Source: Faecalibacterium taiwanense (GTDB lineage: Bacteria; Bacillota; Clostridia; Oscillospirales; Ruminococcaceae). From it: 64,000 nucleotides of DNA. The stretch covers positions 1,302,001 through 1,366,000 of the forward strand of contig NZ_CP155552.1 in assembly GCF_036632915.2 (NCBI RefSeq), in the 5' to 3' direction. Position numbers and translations under genes: made by a program. Positions 3,626 through 39,135 of the stretch are shown piece after piece (positions within the stretch are counted from its first letter, which is position 1; the number at the start of each line of letters is the position of its first letter). Under the pieces are notes generated by a model. The model made no database searches. It was given only the letters and a program-made list of their open reading frames with translations, and was not told the origin of the DNA.

Positions 3626-5701
3626 ATGTCAAAGATCGAGATCCTTGCCCCGGTGGGCAATGAAGAAATGCTGCGTGCCGCTGTATTCAGCGGTGCCGAC
3701 GCAGTGTATCTGGGTTTTTCGGGTTTCAATGCCCGCACCAGTGCCAACAATTTTAACGCGGATACGCTGAAAGATGCGGTCACCTTCTGCCATGCGCGGG
3801 GCGTGGCTGTGCATGTGGCGCTGAACACCACCGTCTATGGCGGCGAGCTGCCCGCGCTGGAACAGGCCATCCGTGCCGTTGCAGCCAGCGGTGCCGATGC
3901 GGTCATCTGTCAGGATCTGGCAGTGGCAACGCTGATCGGTAAAATTGCACCGCAGCTGCCGCGCCACGGCTCCACCCAGATGAGCGTGCACAGCCTGCAG
4001 GGTGCGCTGGAGCTCAAGGAGCTGGGCTTCACCCGCGTGGTGCTGGCCCGTGAGCTGAGCATGCCCGAGGTGGAGCATATCACAAAGCACTGCGGCATCG
4101 AGACCGAGTGCTTCGTGCACGGCGCGCTGTGCATGTGCGTCAGCGGCCAGTGCTACATGTCGGCCTTTCTGGGCGGACGCAGCGGCAACCGCGGTTCCTG
4201 TGCCGGCCCGTGCCGCCTGCCGTTTGAGGCAAATACCCTGCCGGAGGGCAAGCCGGGCCGCCTGCACCACCTGTCCTTAAAGGATAATTCGGTCATTGAT
4301 AAGCTGGACAAGCTGCAGGCGCTTGGCGTGGCATCGGCAAAAATCGAGGGCCGTCTGCGCACGCCGGAGTATGTGGCGGCGGCAGTCAGCGCCTGTCTTG
4401 CAGGCCGCGAGGGCCGCGCCTACGACCGCGATCTGTTGAAGAATGCTTTCAGCCGTTCCGGCTTCACCTCCGGCTATCTGGATGGAAAGATCGACGGCAC
4501 CATGTTCGGCGTGCGCAGTGAAGCAGACGCAGAGCAGACCAAAAAGACCCTGCCCATGCTGCGGGAGCTTTACCGCCGTGAGCGCAGCCGCGTGCCGGTA
4601 AAGATGAAGCTGGAAATTGAAGAGGGTGGCGAAAAGCTCACTGTCACCGATGCAGACGGCAGCAAGGCCTTTGCCTATGGGGATGCAGAGCCGCAGCCTG
4701 CCCGTACTGATCCCACCGAAAGCCTGCACCGCAGCCTTGCCAAGACCGGCGGCACGCCTTTTGCGGTGGAAGATCAGGACATTGCCGTGGAAATGGACGG
4801 TGGGCCGTGGTTTATCCCGGGCAGTGCGGTGAACGAGCTGCGCCGCGAAGCGCTGGATGCCCTGCTCAAAAAGCGGGAAGTGCTGCGCCCATGGCCCACC
4901 ACCGAGGAGCATGTGCCTGCCCTGCCGCTGCGCACCCTGCCGCCTCACCGTACCCTGCGTGCCCGGTTTGAGAGCTGGGAGCAGGTGCCGGAGCGGGCGC
5001 TTGACGGCGTCGAGTATCTCATCCTGCCCATTGCGCAGGCCGACCGCGTGCCCCGGGAATGGCGGGCAAAGACCCTTTTGGAACTACCCCGGGTCATGTT
5101 TGGCAAGCTGGAAGAGGATACCGCCCGCCGCATCGCGGCCACGCAGGACTCCGGTTTTGCAGGCTATGAGGTGAGCAATATCGCCCACCTGCGCCTGTGC
5201 CGGGGCCTGCCCATGAGCGGCAGCTTTGGCCTGAACATCACGAACCAGCTGGCCGCGCAGTTCTACGCGGACAACGGCCTTGGCTCCATGCTCATCCTGC
5301 CCGAGGTGAAGGACAGCGACATCAGCACCATTGCGCCCACCCATAACGGCAGGCCGGTGCCCACCGGCGTGCTGGTGTACGGCCATATGCCGCTGATGAT
5401 CACCCGTGCCTGCCCGCTGCAGAACATCCACGACTGCGCCCACTGCGACAAGACCGGCGTGCTGACCGACCGCAAGGCCAAGAAGTTCCCAGTGCGGTGC
5501 GGCCTTGGTGTGCGCACCATCTATAACCCTGTACCTATTTATATGGGGGATAAGCCGGGCGCTTTGACGGTGGACTACGGTGTGGCTTACTTCACGCTGG
5601 AAAGCCGGGAGGAAGCGGCCAAAATTCTGGAGATGATCCGCACCCATGCACCCTTTGAAGGTGATTTTACCCGTGGGTTGTATTTTAAAGGTACGAACTG
5701 A
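3626..5701 (+). CDS. U32 family peptidase-like protein (RlhA/YdcP type)
   Basis: A 691-residue U32-family protein. The N-terminal TIM-barrel-like half begins IEILAPVGNEEMLRAA and carries the Cys-rich U32 signature CMCVSGQCYMSAFLGG followed by RGSCAGPCRLPFE. The C-terminal half (DUF3656-like) has a second Cys group, CPLQNIHDCAHCDKTG. Members of this length include E. coli RlhA, which hydroxylates C2501 of 23S rRNA and depends on iron-sulfur cluster cysteines; shorter members act in tRNA 5-hydroxyuridine formation. The old annotation as a collagenase-type protease is not supported by any catalytic motif I can see. The start has AAAGGAGAAGT close upstream. An inverted repeat element begins right after the stop. 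Confidence 0.85.
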   Translation: MSKIEILAPVGNEEMLRAAVFSGADAVYLGFSGFNARTSANNFNADTLKDAVTFCHARGVAVHVALNTTVYGGELPALEQAIRAVAASGADAVICQDLAVATLIGKIAPQLPRHGSTQMSVHSLQGALELKELGFTRVVLARELSMPEVEHITKHCGIETECFVHGALCMCVSGQCYMSAFLGGRSGNRGSCAGPCRLPFEANTLPEGKPGRLHHLSLKDNSVIDKLDKLQALGVASAKIEGRLRTPEYVAAAVSACLAGREGRAYDRDLLKNAFSRSGFTSGYLDGKIDGTMFGVRSEADAEQTKKTLPMLRELYRRERSRVPVKMKLEIEEGGEKLTVTDADGSKAFAYGDAEPQPARTDPTESLHRSLAKTGGTPFAVEDQDIAVEMDGGPWFIPGSAVNELRREALDALLKKREVLRPWPTTEEHVPALPLRTLPPHRTLRARFESWEQVPERALDGVEYLILPIAQADRVPREWRAKTLLELPRVMFGKLEEDTARRIAATQDSGFAGYEVSNIAHLRLCRGLPMSGSFGLNITNQLAAQFYADNGLGSMLILPEVKDSDISTIAPTHNGRPVPTGVLVYGHMPLMITRACPLQNIHDCAHCDKTGVLTDRKAKKFPVRCGLGVRTIYNPVPIYMGDKPGALTVDYGVAYFTLESREEAAKILEMIRTHAPFEGDFTRGLYFKGTN

Positions 5702-12041: not shown

Positions 12042-12446
12042 ATGACGATTGCACTCATTGCGCATGACTCCAAAAAGGAGCTGATGGTTCAGTTTTGTAC
12101 GGCGTACTGCCGCATCCTGAGCCAGCATAAACTGGTAGCGACCGGCACCACCGGTAAACTGATCGCAGAAGCTACCGGCTTACAGGTGCAACGCTTTCTG
12201 GCCGGTGTGCAGGGCGGCGACCAGCAGATCGCATCCCGCATCGCCTGCAATGAGATCGACCTGTTGCTGTTCTTCCGTGATCCCATCAACGCAAAGCCCA
12301 GCGAACCCAACGAAATGACGCTGCTGCGCCTGTGCGATGTGCACAACATCCCCATGGCCACCAACATTGCCACTGCCGAGGTACTGATCCACGGCTTGGA
12401 GCGCGGCGATCTGGATTGGCGCGATATCGTGCATCCCCAGAACTGA
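12042..12446 (+). CDS. mgsA: Methylglyoxal synthase
   Basis: A 134-residue enzyme converting dihydroxyacetone phosphate to methylglyoxal and phosphate, a bypass that relieves sugar-phosphate stress when phosphate is low. Family signature: [14 protein letters not shown] at the start, ATGTTGKLI phosphate-binding loop, [10 protein letters not shown], the catalytic aspartate region [12 protein letters not shown], and [13 protein letters not shown] near the end. GGAAGAGGAGAGGG precedes the ATG. It stands alone after the mre cluster, as in other Firmicutes, and its 3' UTR carries the conserved RNA element described at 12452. Confidence 0.96.
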
Positions 12447-12451
12447 CAAAA

Positions 12452-12511
12452 CGATTTGGAATGGCTCCGCGTGTGCTGCGCCATATTCAGCGGAAATTAT
12501 ATTGATAATGC
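12452..12511 (+). repeat. Conserved 3'-UTR RNA element, copy A (after mgsA)
   Basis: Sense strand, six bases after the mgsA stop. Two helices can form: ATGGC with GCCAT, and TCCGC with GCGGA, in interleaved order (first helix 5' arm, second 5' arm, first 3' arm, second 3' arm). An A/T-rich linker then leads into the terminator at 12512. Copies B (12699-12757) and C (34505-34564) share the flanks and the fold with compensatory changes. Confidence 0.7.
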
Positions 12512-12552
12512 GAAAATCGGGAACATCTGCGGATGTTCCCGATTTTCATTTT
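12512..12552 (+). terminator. Terminator after mgsA (UGCG loop)
   Basis: A 16-bp perfect stem, GAAAATCGGGAACATC, with a TGCG loop, followed by ATTTTC. It is the terminator half of copy A. From 12553 to 12656 I see no gene or recognised motif. Confidence 0.8.
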
Positions 12553-12656
12553 CACGGGAATGGGGTCCGAACCGCAGAATGCATTTCTGCCGCCGTGCGG
12601 CTGTTTCCGCAGGAAGCAAAAACAGCAGATGCCGTGTGCCGCAGCGGCCTTGCCTG

Positions 12657-12698
12657 TAAAAAAGAATTCCGGAAAATCCGCAGATTTTCCGGAATTCT
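12657..12698 (-). terminator. Terminator after the MnmA-like gene (UGCG loop)
   Basis: On the minus strand, a 16-bp perfect stem AGAATTCCGGAAAATC with a TGCG loop followed by TTTTTTA. The stem sequence is unrelated to that of copy A although loop and flank match. Confidence 0.85.
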
Positions 12699-12757
12699 AA
12701 TATAAAAATAATGTTTCCGCTGAATATGGCCAGAGTGCAACGGAGGCCATTTGAAAC
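12699..12757 (-). repeat. Conserved 3'-UTR RNA element, copy B (after MnmA-like gene)
   Basis: Lies in sense orientation directly after the stop of the minus-strand MnmA-like gene. Interleaved helices are ATGGCC with GGCCAT and TCCGTTG with CAGCGGA (one G-U pair). The shared strings CGTTTCAAATGG and GCCATATTCAGCGGAAA align it with copy A. Confidence 0.7.
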
Positions 12758-12763
12758 GTACGG

Positions 12764-13294
12764 TTAAACTTTAAAATCCTCGGCCATCTCCGCCACATCT
12801 TCCGGGGCAAAATCGCCAAGCGGCAAGATCAGCCGTGCCAGCGTTTCCTGCGGCAGAGCTGCAAGAATCGTGCTGTCATCACTGCCGGTGCCTGCGGGCG
12901 GGCAGACGGTGTGCACGCCGTCTGCACCGGTCTCCACCCGGGCACGGTGAGTGGTTGCCACATATTGCATCCCAAGCTTGTCTGCAGCCGTCAGCAGGGC
13001 GGCAAACAGCGGCGTGCCGCCTTCGCCCAGAACGTCTGCGTCCTGCCCGGCCAGTGCTTCGGCGTTCAGCACGATGCACTCGATGCCAAGGGCCTCTGCT
13101 GCCTTTTTGGCGCTTTCCGCATCGGCGGTCTGTTCTGCTGCCAGCCGCACGGCAGCGCCCGCCACGGCAAAGCCCTGCTGCTGTAAAATGCGCACAGCTA
13201 CGGCGCATTCTCTGCTGCCGTCCATCTGCACCAGAACCTTATCCTGACTCTCGTAGGTGTCGAACCCACTGCCGGGCAAAAATGTGTCGCTCAT
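12764..13294 (-). CDS. Degenerate MnmA-like (tRNA 2-thiouridylase-type) PP-loop protein
   Basis: A 176-residue protein resembling a shortened, decayed Mnm[20 protein letters not shown] (residues 19-37) occupies the place of the ATP PP-loop strand, but SGGxDSS has become [22 protein letters not shown] matches the MnmA GADYIATGHYARI region, and [25 protein letters not shown] matches the MnmA segment preceding the tRNA-binding part. The catalytic CNxxIKF-type cysteine and the C-terminal domains are missing, so sulfur transfer activity is unlikely. Its ATG overlaps the rnhA stop by 4 bases, so it is translated from the rnhA transcript. I chose this start over the longer frame, which is an rnhA shadow. 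The family call rests on motif resemblance alone. Confidence 0.6.
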
Positions 13295-13755
13295 GTTCCC
13301 TGCCTCCCGCCATGTGCTTTGCTTTGGGCCACGGCCAGCTGGTCGCAGCGTTCGTTCTCCGGGTGGCCTGCGTGGCCCTTGACCCAGACGTAGGTGATCT
13401 TGTGCCGGGCTTCCTGCTCCAGTGCCTGTGCCCAGAGGTCCGGGTTCAGGGCGGGGGAGCCATCTGCTTTTTTCCAGCCCCGGCGCTGCCAGTTTTTGGC
13501 CCAGCCCTTCTGAAGCCCGTTGATGACATACTGGCTGTCGGAGCACAGCCGTACCTCGCACGGCTCCTTGAGCTGGCGCAGTGCTTCGATAAAGGCTGTC
13601 AGCTCCATGCGGTTGTTGGTGGTGCTGTCGTCGCCGCCGCTCAGCTCTTTTTCGTAAACTTTGCCGTTAAAACGGTAGCGCAGCACGGCACCCCAGCCGC
13701 CCGGGCCGGGATTGCCGCTGCATGCGCCGTCGGTGTACACTTCGACCTGCTTCAT
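13291..13755 (-). CDS. rnhA: Ribonuclease HI
   Basis: A 154-residue RNase HI that cuts the RNA strand of RNA-DNA hybrids. All catalytic residues are visible: Asp9 ([14 protein letters not shown]), Glu51 (NNRMEL), Asp73 ([11 protein letters not shown]), His128 ([13 protein letters not shown]) and Asp138. The basic handle region ([16 protein letters not shown]) is present, as in the E. coli type. AGAAGGAG precedes the ATG. It is the first gene of a two-gene minus-strand unit with the MnmA-like protein and has its own promoter at 13785-13814, back to back with the RNase J promoter. Confidence 0.95.
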
Positions 13756-34378: not shown

Positions 34379-34395
34379 TTATTTTGAATGAGAAA

Positions 34396-34432
34396 GCCGC
34401 CTGCATTGGTTCAAGATGCAGGCGGCATTTTT
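34396..34432 (+). terminator. Rho-independent terminator after deoB
   Basis: GCCGCCTGCAT, a 9-base loop, ATGCAGGCGGC, then ATTTTT. Confidence 0.9.
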
Positions 34433-34462
34433 ATGCAGTTTATCGGCACGGACTTTCTGGTG

Positions 34463-34504
34463 AAAAAGCAAAACAGGAAATGACCGCAGTCGTTTCCTGT
34501 TTTG
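34463..34504 (-). terminator. Terminator after the LCP gene (UGCG loop)
   Basis: On the minus strand CAAAACAGGAAACGAC, loop TGCG, GTCATTTCCTGTTTTG, then CTTTTT: a 16-bp stem with one G-T pair. It is the terminator half of copy C of the 3'-UTR element. Confidence 0.85.
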
Positions 34505-34564
34505 CAAATAAAATAATATTTCCGCGATAGAGTCCGGAGCTTGCGCGGAGGACATTTCAAATCG
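34505..34564 (-). repeat. Conserved 3'-UTR RNA element, copy C (after the LCP gene)
   Basis: Sense orientation, starting at the LCP stop: CGATTTGAAATG, then interleaved helices GTCC with GGAC and TCCGCG with CGCGGA, then AAATATTATTTTAT leading to the terminator. Relative to copies A and B both arms of each helix have changed while pairing is kept. Confidence 0.7.
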
Positions 34565-36268
34565 TCAGGCCGCGTCGTTCTGCTGCGAAGCAGCATCCTG
34601 AATGGCACCCCAGATGGAGGAAGCCGCATTGTAGATGGACGATGCAGCCTGTTCCACCTCTTCCTGCGTGGGCAGGGAGATAGACGGGGCTTCGGCAGGT
34701 GTGTCCCCGCCGGTCTCGCCCTCGGCGGGAGCTTCCGGCTCCGGCGTCTGGGTGTCGGCAGGCTGCTCTGCAGGCTGGTCAGCCGGGACGGTCTCTTCCG
34801 GCAGGCTGTCGGCGGGCACTTCTTCGGGAACGCTCTCCGCAGGCACCTCCGAAACGGCAGCGTTCGGGTCGGTGGTGGGGGTGAACACATCGGTCTTTTC
34901 CGGCTTCTGGGTGGTGTCGGCAACGGTGCCCTCACCGCCCAGCACGGACGCGATCATTTCCCTGGCCTTGCTCACAGAAGCATCGTCCGGTTTCATGACG
35001 TAGAGCTTCTGTCCCTTGGCAGAGTAGCACTTGGTGCTGCTGGAGCTTGTGCCGGTGACGGTATAGCTTTCAATATCCCACTCGGCAAAGTCGCTCAGTT
35101 GCATCCGTACCAGCGCACTGATCTGATCCTGTGAAAAGCTGGTCACAAAGCAGTCGGAGGCGGCATCCATGATCTTGGAAAAGCCCATCAGCAGGGCAGG
35201 GGACTTGATCTTGTTCAGCATGGCATCGATCACCTTCATCTGGTTGATGCCGCGCTGGATATCGCCGGACGCAAAGGCGTGGCGTTCGCGGGCAAAGGCC
35301 AGTGCGGACTTACCGTCCAGATGGTTCCAGCCCTCCACAAAGGTGGTGGGGTCATAGTAGCCGGGGCTGCCCACAGAAGTGAACGCCTGATCGGAGTAGA
35401 CATCCACGCCGCCCAGCGCATCGATGATGCTGATGAAGCCCGCAAAGTTGATGCGGATGTAATGGTCCACATTGACACCGTACAGATTGCCCAGTGTGGC
35501 CATGCTGGTTTCCACGCCGTACAGACCGGCGTGAGTCAGCTTATCCTTGCTGTCAGTGCCGGCAAGGTCTACGTAGTAGTCGCGCGGGGTGTTGATCAGG
35601 GCCACCCTCTTGGTGACAGGGTTCACGGCAGCAAGGATATTCACGTCGCTGCGGGCATTTTCGGTCAACTCGCCGCGGGTGTCCACGCCGCTGAGGTAGA
35701 TCACAAACGGCTCCTTGGTGATCTTGTTGGCCTCGGCACCGGTGAGCAGGCCAGAGGTCATGCTGCCCAAGGCAGAAAGGCCCTGCTGGGCCCAGAAGCA
35801 GCCCAGTGCCATGGCAGCGCACAGGAACACCGAAAATACCCGGGCCACCTTGCCGGGAACATTGTACTCCTGACAGCGCTTTACCAGCAGCCACAAAAGC
35901 GCCAGCAGCGCGGCCAGAATGACCAGATACAGCACCGGCAGCATCTGGGTGCGCCACAGCTGCACCAGTGCCAGAATGCTTAAAATACCTTGTAAGATCA
36001 GCAAAATTTTCCCCCACTTGGAAGGTACTGCCACGGCTCCATCCACGGGCGGATGGGCCTTGGGCGGTACGGGTGTGTTGTGGCCGCTGCGCGGCGGCTT
36101 CTGGGGAGGCTGGGCCGGAGGCGGTGTGCTGGGCTGTTCCGGCGGCAGCTCGGAAAAAAACGCCGAGCTGTCTACCTCGATGGGCGCAGTATCCTCAGAG
36201 CCTTCCTTGCGGCTGATGTGCCGCAGAGAACGGTAATCTTCGTGGGAACGATCGTTTTCATCCATCAT
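34565..36268 (-). CDS. LytR-CpsA-Psr (LCP) family glycopolymer transferase
   Basis: A 567-residue membrane protein of the LCP family, which attaches polyprenyl-linked teichoic acids or capsular glycans to peptidoglycan. A Pro-rich cytoplasmic N-terminus (about 40-80) is followed by three hydrophobic helices between about 85 and 165, then the extracellular LCP domain (about 190-370) with NARSDVNILAAVNP, LINTPRDYYVDL and ARERHAFASGDIQRGINQM, carrying the Arg/Asp residues that bind the lipid pyrophosphate. Residues about 460-567 are a Pro/Glu/Ala/Thr tail. The ATG has AGGAG 9 bases upstream. It is the last gene after nadE and the NusG-II protein. Confidence 0.92.
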   Translation of the reverse strand: MMDENDRSHEDYRSLRHISRKEGSEDTAPIEVDSSAFFSELPPEQPSTPPPAQPPQKPPRSGHNTPVPPKAHPPVDGAVAVPSKWGKILLILQGILSILALVQLWRTQMLPVLYLVILAALLALLWLLVKRCQEYNVPGKVARVFSVFLCAAMALGCFWAQQGLSALGSMTSGLLTGAEANKITKEPFVIYLSGVDTRGELTENARSDVNILAAVNPVTKRVALINTPRDYYVDLAGTDSKDKLTHAGLYGVETSMATLGNLYGVNVDHYIRINFAGFISIIDALGGVDVYSDQAFTSVGSPGYYDPTTFVEGWNHLDGKSALAFARERHAFASGDIQRGINQMKVIDAMLNKIKSPALLMGFSKIMDAASDCFVTSFSQDQISALVRMQLSDFAEWDIESYTVTGTSSSSTKCYSAKGQKLYVMKPDDASVSKAREMIASVLGGEGTVADTTQKPEKTDVFTPTTDPNAAVSEVPAESVPEEVPADSLPEETVPADQPAEQPADTQTPEPEAPAEGETGGDTPAEAPSISLPTQEEVEQAASSIYNAASSIWGAIQDAASQQNDAA

Positions 36269-38785: not shown

Positions 38786-39135
38786 GGAAAACGAGATAGA
38801 CCGTAAGCCGGGTTCTGTATTAAACGACGATCTGTCTAGACCTGCCATTGCTGACAGGTTCGTGCCGCCTTCGGGACACGCGAGCAGCGCTGTACGTCCC
38901 ATATAGGCGTTGCTTCCGGTAGGGTTTACAAAGCCGCATGGTCACCCATGCGCTGGTGAGCTCTTACCTCGCCGTTTCATCCTTACCGCATTGCTGCGGC
39001 GGTTTGTTTTCTGTTGCACTTTCCCTAAGGTCACCCTCGGCTGCCGTTAGCAGTTACCGTGCTCTGTGAGGCCCGGACTTTCCTCAGAGCGGTCAAAGCC
39101 GCCCCGCCGCCGTATGTTCCACTCGTTTTCCGCTC
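38786..39135 (-). ncRNA. rnpB: RNase P RNA, class A
   Basis: About 350 nt. The catalytic RNA of RNase P, which removes 5' leaders from tRNA precursors. On the minus strand the conserved CR I region GAGGAAAGTCCGGGC lies near 39083, GGTAAGAGCTCACC marks the P11-P12 region, GGTGACCATGCGG follows, and the 3' universal segment ACAGAACCCGGCTTA is near 38812. The 5' end GGAAAACGAG pairs with the 3' end CTCGTTTTCC to close helix P1. Ends are set by P1 and are accurate to a few bases. It has a promoter at 39139-39167 and its own terminator. Confidence 0.97.

Follow-up and report, generated by a model that had tools for sequence, protein, structure and literature searches.

A motif of about 60 bases recurs after three genes in the window, a 64,000-nucleotide stretch of the Faecalibacterium taiwanense genome (contig NZ_CP155552.1, positions 1,302,001 to 1,366,000), and precedes a terminator in each case. 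What is this element, and why does it lie at the ends of genes? The original prediction described a 3′-UTR RNA element, always in sense orientation, in which two interleaved helices with matched changes would form an H-type pseudoknot or two alternative folds. We analyzed its copies in the window, in the genome of the window (the home genome; coordinates written G000:C1), in a strain of the same species (G061), in a sister species (G029), and in further relatives.

The motif was found after the mgsA-like, MnmA-like, and LCP genes as described, and copies A, B, and C and their helix strings were all present at the predicted places. Arm A was matched by a covariance model at 12451-12555 on the plus strand (G000:C1:1314451-1314555, 93.5 bits), 4 nt past the TGA at 12444-12446 that ends an MGS-like gene (methylglyoxal synthase type; 12042-12446, plus strand; Pfam PF02142). 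It consists of the head AYGATTTnAAATG, the hairpin H1, GCGGAAA, an AT-rich spacer, a terminator hairpin, and TTTTCAC. Its H1 hairpin is located at 12461-12484, with 12461-12465 pairing with 12480-12484, and corresponds to the covarying helix 1 (columns 11-16/31-36 of a 33-copy alignment). The terminator hairpin, seen in the sequence and the RNA fold, spans 12512-12547 and has a 16-bp stem and a TGCG loop followed by ATTTTCAC. Arm B is inverted, at 12656-12759 on the minus strand (G000:C1:1314656-1314759, 102.8 bits), 4 nt past the stop of a gene with a tRNA_Me_trans domain (MnmA-like; tRNA methyl transferase HUP domain; Pfam PF03054), which occupies 12764-13561 on the minus strand with an uncertain start, 13561 as listed and 13294 by our home-made gene caller. 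Covariation and RNA folding placed the H1 hairpin of arm B at 12726-12750 (ATGGCC at 12750-12745 with GGCCAT at 12731-12726), and its terminator hairpin at 12663-12698 on the same strand has 16 bp and a TGCG loop, followed by TTTTTTAC. A simple terminator scan listed terminator B, as did the RNA fold, and terminator A was absent from that scan.

Arm C is a solo arm at 34460-34565 on the minus strand (G000:C1:1336460-1336565, 83.5 bits), whose first base is the A of the TGA of the LytR_cpsA_psr (LCP) gene (34565-36268, minus strand; Pfam PF03816). Its terminator stem, at 34468-34505 in the RNA fold, has 17 bp with one mismatch. The UGCG loops and differing stems of the three terminators held up; a stem of 16 bp for all of them did not. 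The convergent gene with a Metalloenzyme domain has its own ordinary terminator-like hairpin (AAAGCCGCCTGCATTGGTTCAAGATGCAGGCGGCATTTTT) at 34385-34440, facing arm C. That no described class accounts for the motif was borne out by Rfam, in which RNase P was the only family at gathering score in the window, and by a literature search, with subscription literature mostly outside its reach, that found no earlier description of the repeat family. A permissive Rfam scan of 12440-12765 gave weak matches alone, the best scoring 27 bits, far short of its gathering score of 86. The RNase P RNA, of bacterial class A, is located at 38788-39125 on the minus strand (267.7 bits).

Arms A and B are the two facing arms of one palindrome of about 310 bp, with a centre at 12556-12655 between them, and sequence conservation extends beyond the terminator to TTTTTCAC and further; both features had been missed by the original prediction. 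The home genome contains 19 adjacent arm pairs no more than 1 kb apart, A/B among them, and all 19 face inward, providing terminal inverted repeats of the kind found in MITEs. Unit length is 261-426 bp in 16 of the 19 pairs, and most whole units are about 260-330 bp. Units of 573 and 581 bp apparently have other DNA inserted inside, and a unit of 1124 bp has other sequence within its gap of 910 bp. The remaining neighbors within 1 kb are only those involving two matches below 33 bits, one of them 562 bp from an arm of the same orientation and the other overlapping an arm pair, which are omitted from the pair and site counts. Solo arms are in the majority: 52 that overlap no gene were counted, compared with 36 arms in pairs less than 600 bp apart.

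To describe the arm, 33 copies from the home genome were aligned, namely 43 listed matches minus 6 unlike the element and 5 with an interrupted terminator or an insert, plus copy A, all cut at the TTTTTCAC-type tail. The arm is about 106 nt long and contains AYGATTTnAAATG, the H1 stem-loop with a conserved loop, GCGGAAA, the AT-rich spacer, a terminator-like hairpin (mostly with a UGCG loop and usually 16 bp), and TTTTTCAC. In H1, a 2-bp inner helix, and the terminator stem taken together, 18 of 23 pairs showed two-sided changes, in 197 cells altogether, and the covariation score was 0.696 compared with 0.175 in shuffles. Covariation was strong in H1 and the terminator stem, and the second pair of the inner helix, which is formed by columns 20-21 of the proposed helix 2, also covaried (CG in 29 copies, UA in 4). 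The significant covariation of helix 1 supports a conserved structured element tied to terminator-like hairpins.

The same alignment gave a different result for helix 2, the second helix of the proposed pseudoknot. Changes said to be matched on the other arm were so in helix 1 and the terminator stem, but helix 2 had no compensated change in the 33 copies, and its covariation was no better than that of shuffles. Among 77 full arms (the best 77 of 101 model matches), helix 2 again had no compensated change, and G.A occurred at its first pair in 18 arms and at its fourth in 15. With no compensated changes and many breaks, the H-type pseudoknot and the alternative fold through helix 2 are unsupported as a property of the family and were rejected on the covariation in both sets of copies. 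This corrects a hypothesis that would have misdirected probing experiments. Copy C is an exception in that its minimum-energy fold uses helix 2, and a local alternative fold may occur in single copies of this kind.

The terminator stem is 14-21 bp long in 77/77 full arms and exactly 16 bp in 54/77, as found by a scan that imposed a 4-base loop. Each full arm combines a conserved head hairpin with a second, strong hairpin that resembles an intrinsic terminator and is followed by a U-tract. A stable hairpin with an immediate U-tract, the sequence criterion for an intrinsic terminator, was seen in the 77 stems, the TTTTTCAC-type tail of the 33 aligned arms, and the folds of A, B, and C. The stem sequence varies between copies while pairing is kept: of 1238 pairs in the 77 arms, 1191 were Watson-Crick, 20 G.U, 9 A.C, and 18 other. 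The G.U fraction (20/1238, about 1.6%) is lower than that in terminator-like hairpins lying outside elements in the same DNA (119/1441, 8%; Fisher P ~4e-16), a contrast that is indicative because the two scans differ in their rules, the ordinary-hairpin scan allowing up to one mismatch.

The element is not confined to the window. The 18-mer GATTTGAAATGGCCTCCG occurred twice in the window with up to 3 mismatches (0.05 expected), and the 18-base head pattern at the same tolerance occurred 43 times in the 2.96-Mb home genome, compared with once for a reversed control. The covariance model, built from the 33 home-genome copies and counted at E <=1e-3, gave at least 94 matches in the home genome, at least 78 in G061, and at least 135 in G029; these are lower bounds because 150 candidates were scored per genome. 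Among 30 Faecalibacterium genomes searched, seven had at least 64 matches each and the other 23 had 0-3; G061, from beyond that first search, is an eighth element-rich genome. In a tree built from a 601-bp marker of 27 genomes, the eight rich genomes form one clade (support 87/89). The repeat is an inverted-repeat interspersed DNA family that is abundant in one Faecalibacterium clade.

Outside the genus, one weak match was found in the search that included the 30 Faecalibacterium genomes. In 197 genomes from the family, with 20 candidates scored in each, strong matches occurred only in Faecalibacterium (the home genome and G007), and three genomes had one or two weak matches. A 21-base pattern with one N, searched in a collection that represents 84,980 species by a single genome each, gave 26 stretches, all in Faecalibacterium, including F. 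prausnitzii ATCC 27768 and CNCM I 4541. One exact pattern gave no stretches in IMG/VR, and none of 72,556 plasmid records contained the element. Partial matches were present in 10 of 50,697 INPHARED phage records, all of them unannotated fecal contigs of 4-12 kb; these 'Bacteriophage sp.' contigs, MT838183.1, MT838672.1, and eight others, may be bacterial DNA.

Placement relative to genes was strongly non-random, yet not purely sense. Among the 89 arms in the home genome that do not overlap a gene predicted by the home-made caller, 65 lie sense-downstream of a gene, at a median of 3 nt past the stop, so that sense arms mostly start a few bases from the stop codon; the other 24 have an oppositely oriented gene upstream. 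The rule that copies are always in sense holds in the window and does not hold genome-wide. At 70 sites, counted without solo arms that overlap a predicted gene, the flanking genes were convergent, codirectional, and divergent in 28, 39, and 3 cases, respectively, compared with 24, 128, and 35 in an intergenic sample (P ~1e-6), which was non-random, being made of pieces of the same-species strain plus the window, and used a stricter gene-call threshold. Solo arms were sense in 40 cases and not in 12 (P 1.3e-4); within codirectional gaps the sense bias was non-significant (19 vs 10, P 0.14).

Conservation was then compared between the home genome and the sister species G029. In 26 orthologous arms, identical positions were 206/206 in the tail, 818/832 in the stem, 1171/1207 in the head, and 385/402 in the spacer, rates that are biased upward because 7 of 33 arms, less than 85% identical and judged replaced or inverted, were left out. 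The corresponding values were 14557/15543 for 600-bp flanks, 80908/86895 for coding DNA, 12074/14514 for 4-fold sites, and 9589/10448 for other alignable intergenic DNA. All aligned element DNA, at 5497/5838, was close to coding DNA. To judge from these sequences, the retained loci look selected, and the constraint on stem and tail fits intrinsic termination. We consider it probable that the family is a formerly amplified repeat whose copies would now serve as back-to-back intrinsic terminators.

Conservation also extended to the CAC that follows the U-tract and to the palindrome centres, which were identical at 500/518 positions in 7 pairs other than A/B. In 21 hand-listed arms, head identity in 7 non-sense arms (324/329) was like that in 14 sense arms (638/657). 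A pure 3′-end role does not predict the conserved non-sense arms, and a terminator does not need the CAC and the centre. These observations bear on the proposal that the family is a genome-wide 3′-UTR RNA regulator, in which a protein or sRNA is bound by the head hairpin of sense transcripts and the role of the terminator is limited to ending the message. Covariation of the head, its conservation above the flanks, and the sense arms close to stop codons agree with such a regulator. We nevertheless consider it unlikely, since the 24 arms outside the sense 3′ position include the 7 that proved equally conserved, the genes preceding arms A, B, and C belong to unrelated families according to Pfam, and the pseudoknot fails. 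A strictly sense 3′-UTR element, as first proposed, does not agree with the genome as a whole.

A role at the DNA level would accommodate these observations: pairing of the DNA or a bound protein would explain the conserved non-sense arms, CAC, centre, and head, and the scarcity of G.U leans the same way. In its strict form, this proposal makes the family an architectural repeat, a BIME-like cruciform or protein-binding site between converging genes with termination as an incidental property, and the enrichment of convergent sites is in its favor. The T-tract after each stem, with every tail position kept in the 26 arms, and the excess of solo arms beside stop codons argue against termination being incidental, and we regard the strict form as improbable.

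The age of the family was estimated from orthologous and paralogous copies. Of the 61 G029 arms examined, 24 had a counterpart in the home genome with 95-100% identity, whereas the nearest paralogous arm was at most 91.6% identical in the home genome (median 81.3%) and at most 91.7% among the 61 G029 arms. Because orthologues are closer than any paralogue, the family is old, with amplification before the split of the home genome and G029 and no recent copying seen. Recent transposition in the home genome was ruled out by these paralogue identities. Former mobility may be inferred from the copy number and the inverted structure.

Sites nonetheless differ between genomes. The site survey of G029 used 123 of the 135 matches (the 12 lowest-scoring were omitted) and covered 37 sites in 20 regions, mostly around pairs: 22 sites had a home-genome arm no more than 60 nt from one or both mapped flank edges, 7 had the flank in the home genome with no arm there, and 8 had no flank match in the home-genome element loci. 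At site A/B, the home genome, G061, and G029 have the palindrome, and four other rich and five poor relatives have, as judged by eye, an ordinary terminator-like hairpin instead, one of them with other repeats added. At another convergent pair, the palindrome is in G029 and an ordinary terminator in the home genome. Seven home-genome sites picked as candidates were inspected in G061; six had unrelated sequence there, often an ordinary terminator, and the seventh kept a remnant. What the palindrome replaces can be seen from the ordinary terminator-like hairpins that relatives have in its position. In the relative G028, the two genes bordering site A/B are separated by about 1.5 kb of other DNA (G028:C11:263518-265060).

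An inversion and a possible exchange were also seen. The core of site A/B is inverted in G029, with an inner identity of 0.74 in inverted and 0.62 in direct alignment; of 14 pairs compared between the two genomes, 12 were clearly collinear, A/B was inverted, and one (2239877) was ambiguous. In deeper relatives, 9 of 31 arms share their site with the home genome, and 8 of those 9 are no more than 80% identical; the 31 were drawn from 42 arms by omitting 8 same-species, 2 weak, and 1 short-flank arms. The home-genome arm at 946281 and its deeper-relative counterpart have a fully compensated two-pair difference in H1, and this arm may be an exchanged copy.

The differences between genomes also raise the question of whether the family is a MITE or REPIN-type mobile element that is still active today and inserts preferentially at gene ends. 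Many dispersed copies with inverted arms, presence or absence at a site between strains of one species, and the distribution of a candidate transposase speak for it: in a search that covered the Y1 family, matches occurred in 6 of the 8 rich genomes and in 5 of the 23 others of the genus (Fisher P 0.012, kinship ignored), and 3 of 17 Y1 loci had a strong arm. Against it, no paralogue exceeds the identities given above, the home genome and G006 are both rich and without a Y1 match, and, of the three arms near Y1 genes, two come immediately after another gene. No target-site duplication, which together with transposon-like spread would have counted against the original prediction, was apparent by eye at the presence/absence junctions inspected, including the seven G061 sites, and most of these junctions resemble replacements, not clean insertions. 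The element at 1492371 is missing in the same-species strain and about 98% identical in G029, and its absence in G061 is therefore ascribed to loss or recombination. Taken together, these points make current activity very improbable. The three Y1 loci with strong arms (L145, L155, and L158; G022 and G061) are about 3 kb each. At 1492371 and G061:C1:2985232-2985303, the flanks in these two strains of one species are about 98% identical, and quite different terminator-like hairpins follow the same gene, suggesting that ordinary terminators, too, are replaced quickly.

If the copies are domesticated terminators, as we favor, the course of events may have been as follows. After an old amplification, copies would have been retained as transcription terminators, the palindrome taking over the place of ordinary ones, and each of two back-to-back arms would stop transcription arriving from its own side, inward from the adjoining gene. 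Purifying selection would hold individual copies, with matched double substitutions accounting for most change in the stems and with occasional inversion or exchange of whole arms. The head hairpin was probably once the recognition site of whatever mobilized the repeat and, more speculatively, may today protect the 3′ end of the mRNA as well. A further-reaching version, which we put forward tentatively and with some doubt, is a dispersed, exchangeable terminator module flush with stop codons that replaces ordinary terminators, with stems kept Watson-Crick on both strands, possibly through hairpin-templated copying, a core that inverts, arms that swap, and a constraint at retained loci greater than that on adjoining coding DNA.

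Several known systems share part of these features. In Neisseria, paired inverted DNA-uptake sequences after genes double as terminators, the uptake word of about 10-12 nt forming the stem itself. The present family likewise has inverted pairs of a repeat downstream of genes, but each Faecalibacterium arm has its own stem, and the stem sequences differ between copies. Intrinsic terminators of Bacillus cereus are described as showing compensatory stem evolution by matched double substitutions, with convergent genes as a special case (PMC5381666). The Faecalibacterium element resembles them in its post-gene stem, U-tract, and matched double substitutions. It differs in that many terminators here belong to a single dispersed palindromic family and have a conserved hairpin upstream, a mostly fixed stem length, a T5-CAC tail, and the low G.U fraction given above. 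AU-GC switches made up 81 of 145 nearest-copy double changes in the 77 arms, compared with 79% of switches in B. cereus, a rough comparison since our count is not tree-based (PMC5381666).

REP, BIME, and REPIN sequences (GTAG- and CGTC-tagged) are extragenic palindromes 3′ of genes with alternative complementary stem residues and proposed roles in termination and mRNA stability, and the present family is like them in being an extragenic palindrome downstream of genes with complementary stem variation (PMC3733652). In contrast to REP/REPIN, it has no GTAG/CGTC tag at the foot of a 20-40 bp hairpin; the consensus starts with ACGATTTaAAATG, whose ATG is the first part of a stem, and the unit is far longer and carries terminators, with no Y1 match in the home genome. 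Stem-loop repeat families are known in many genomes (PMC2267715). The bcr1-bcr18 repeats of B. cereus are lineage-specific and dispersed, some MITE-like and some structured and in UTRs, according to the part of the account available; the Faecalibacterium family is likewise lineage-specific, dispersed, and structured, and it is set apart by description, the bcr families not being presented there as paired terminator arms abutting stop codons (PMC3446304). The family agrees only in part with the definitions of REP and MITE. Compensatory terminator evolution and interspersed repeats in UTRs are known already; what is new, judged by the literature search, is this Faecalibacterium family.

If the terminator reading is right, one domesticated repeat would determine where many transcripts end in a major human gut commensal, and each genome would offer dozens of natural replicates of how terminators arise, swap, and persist. 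The repeat would also be a source of strong candidates for natural terminators, and its conserved head hairpin raises a sharp question.

Other repeats were observed inside several elements. A repeat that starts in the manner of CTTGTCGGGGCAAnGCCCC and contains hairpins of its own lies within the terminator hairpin of the arms at G000:C1:62128-62245, 510656-510744, and 181629-181739, and in these three arms the TGCGG loop region looks like its landing site. A second intergenic repeat, of the CCTCTCAGTC...GGGAGAGC type, interrupts or truncates several elements, for example at G000:C1:1492476-1492845 and G000:C1:2239984-2240195.
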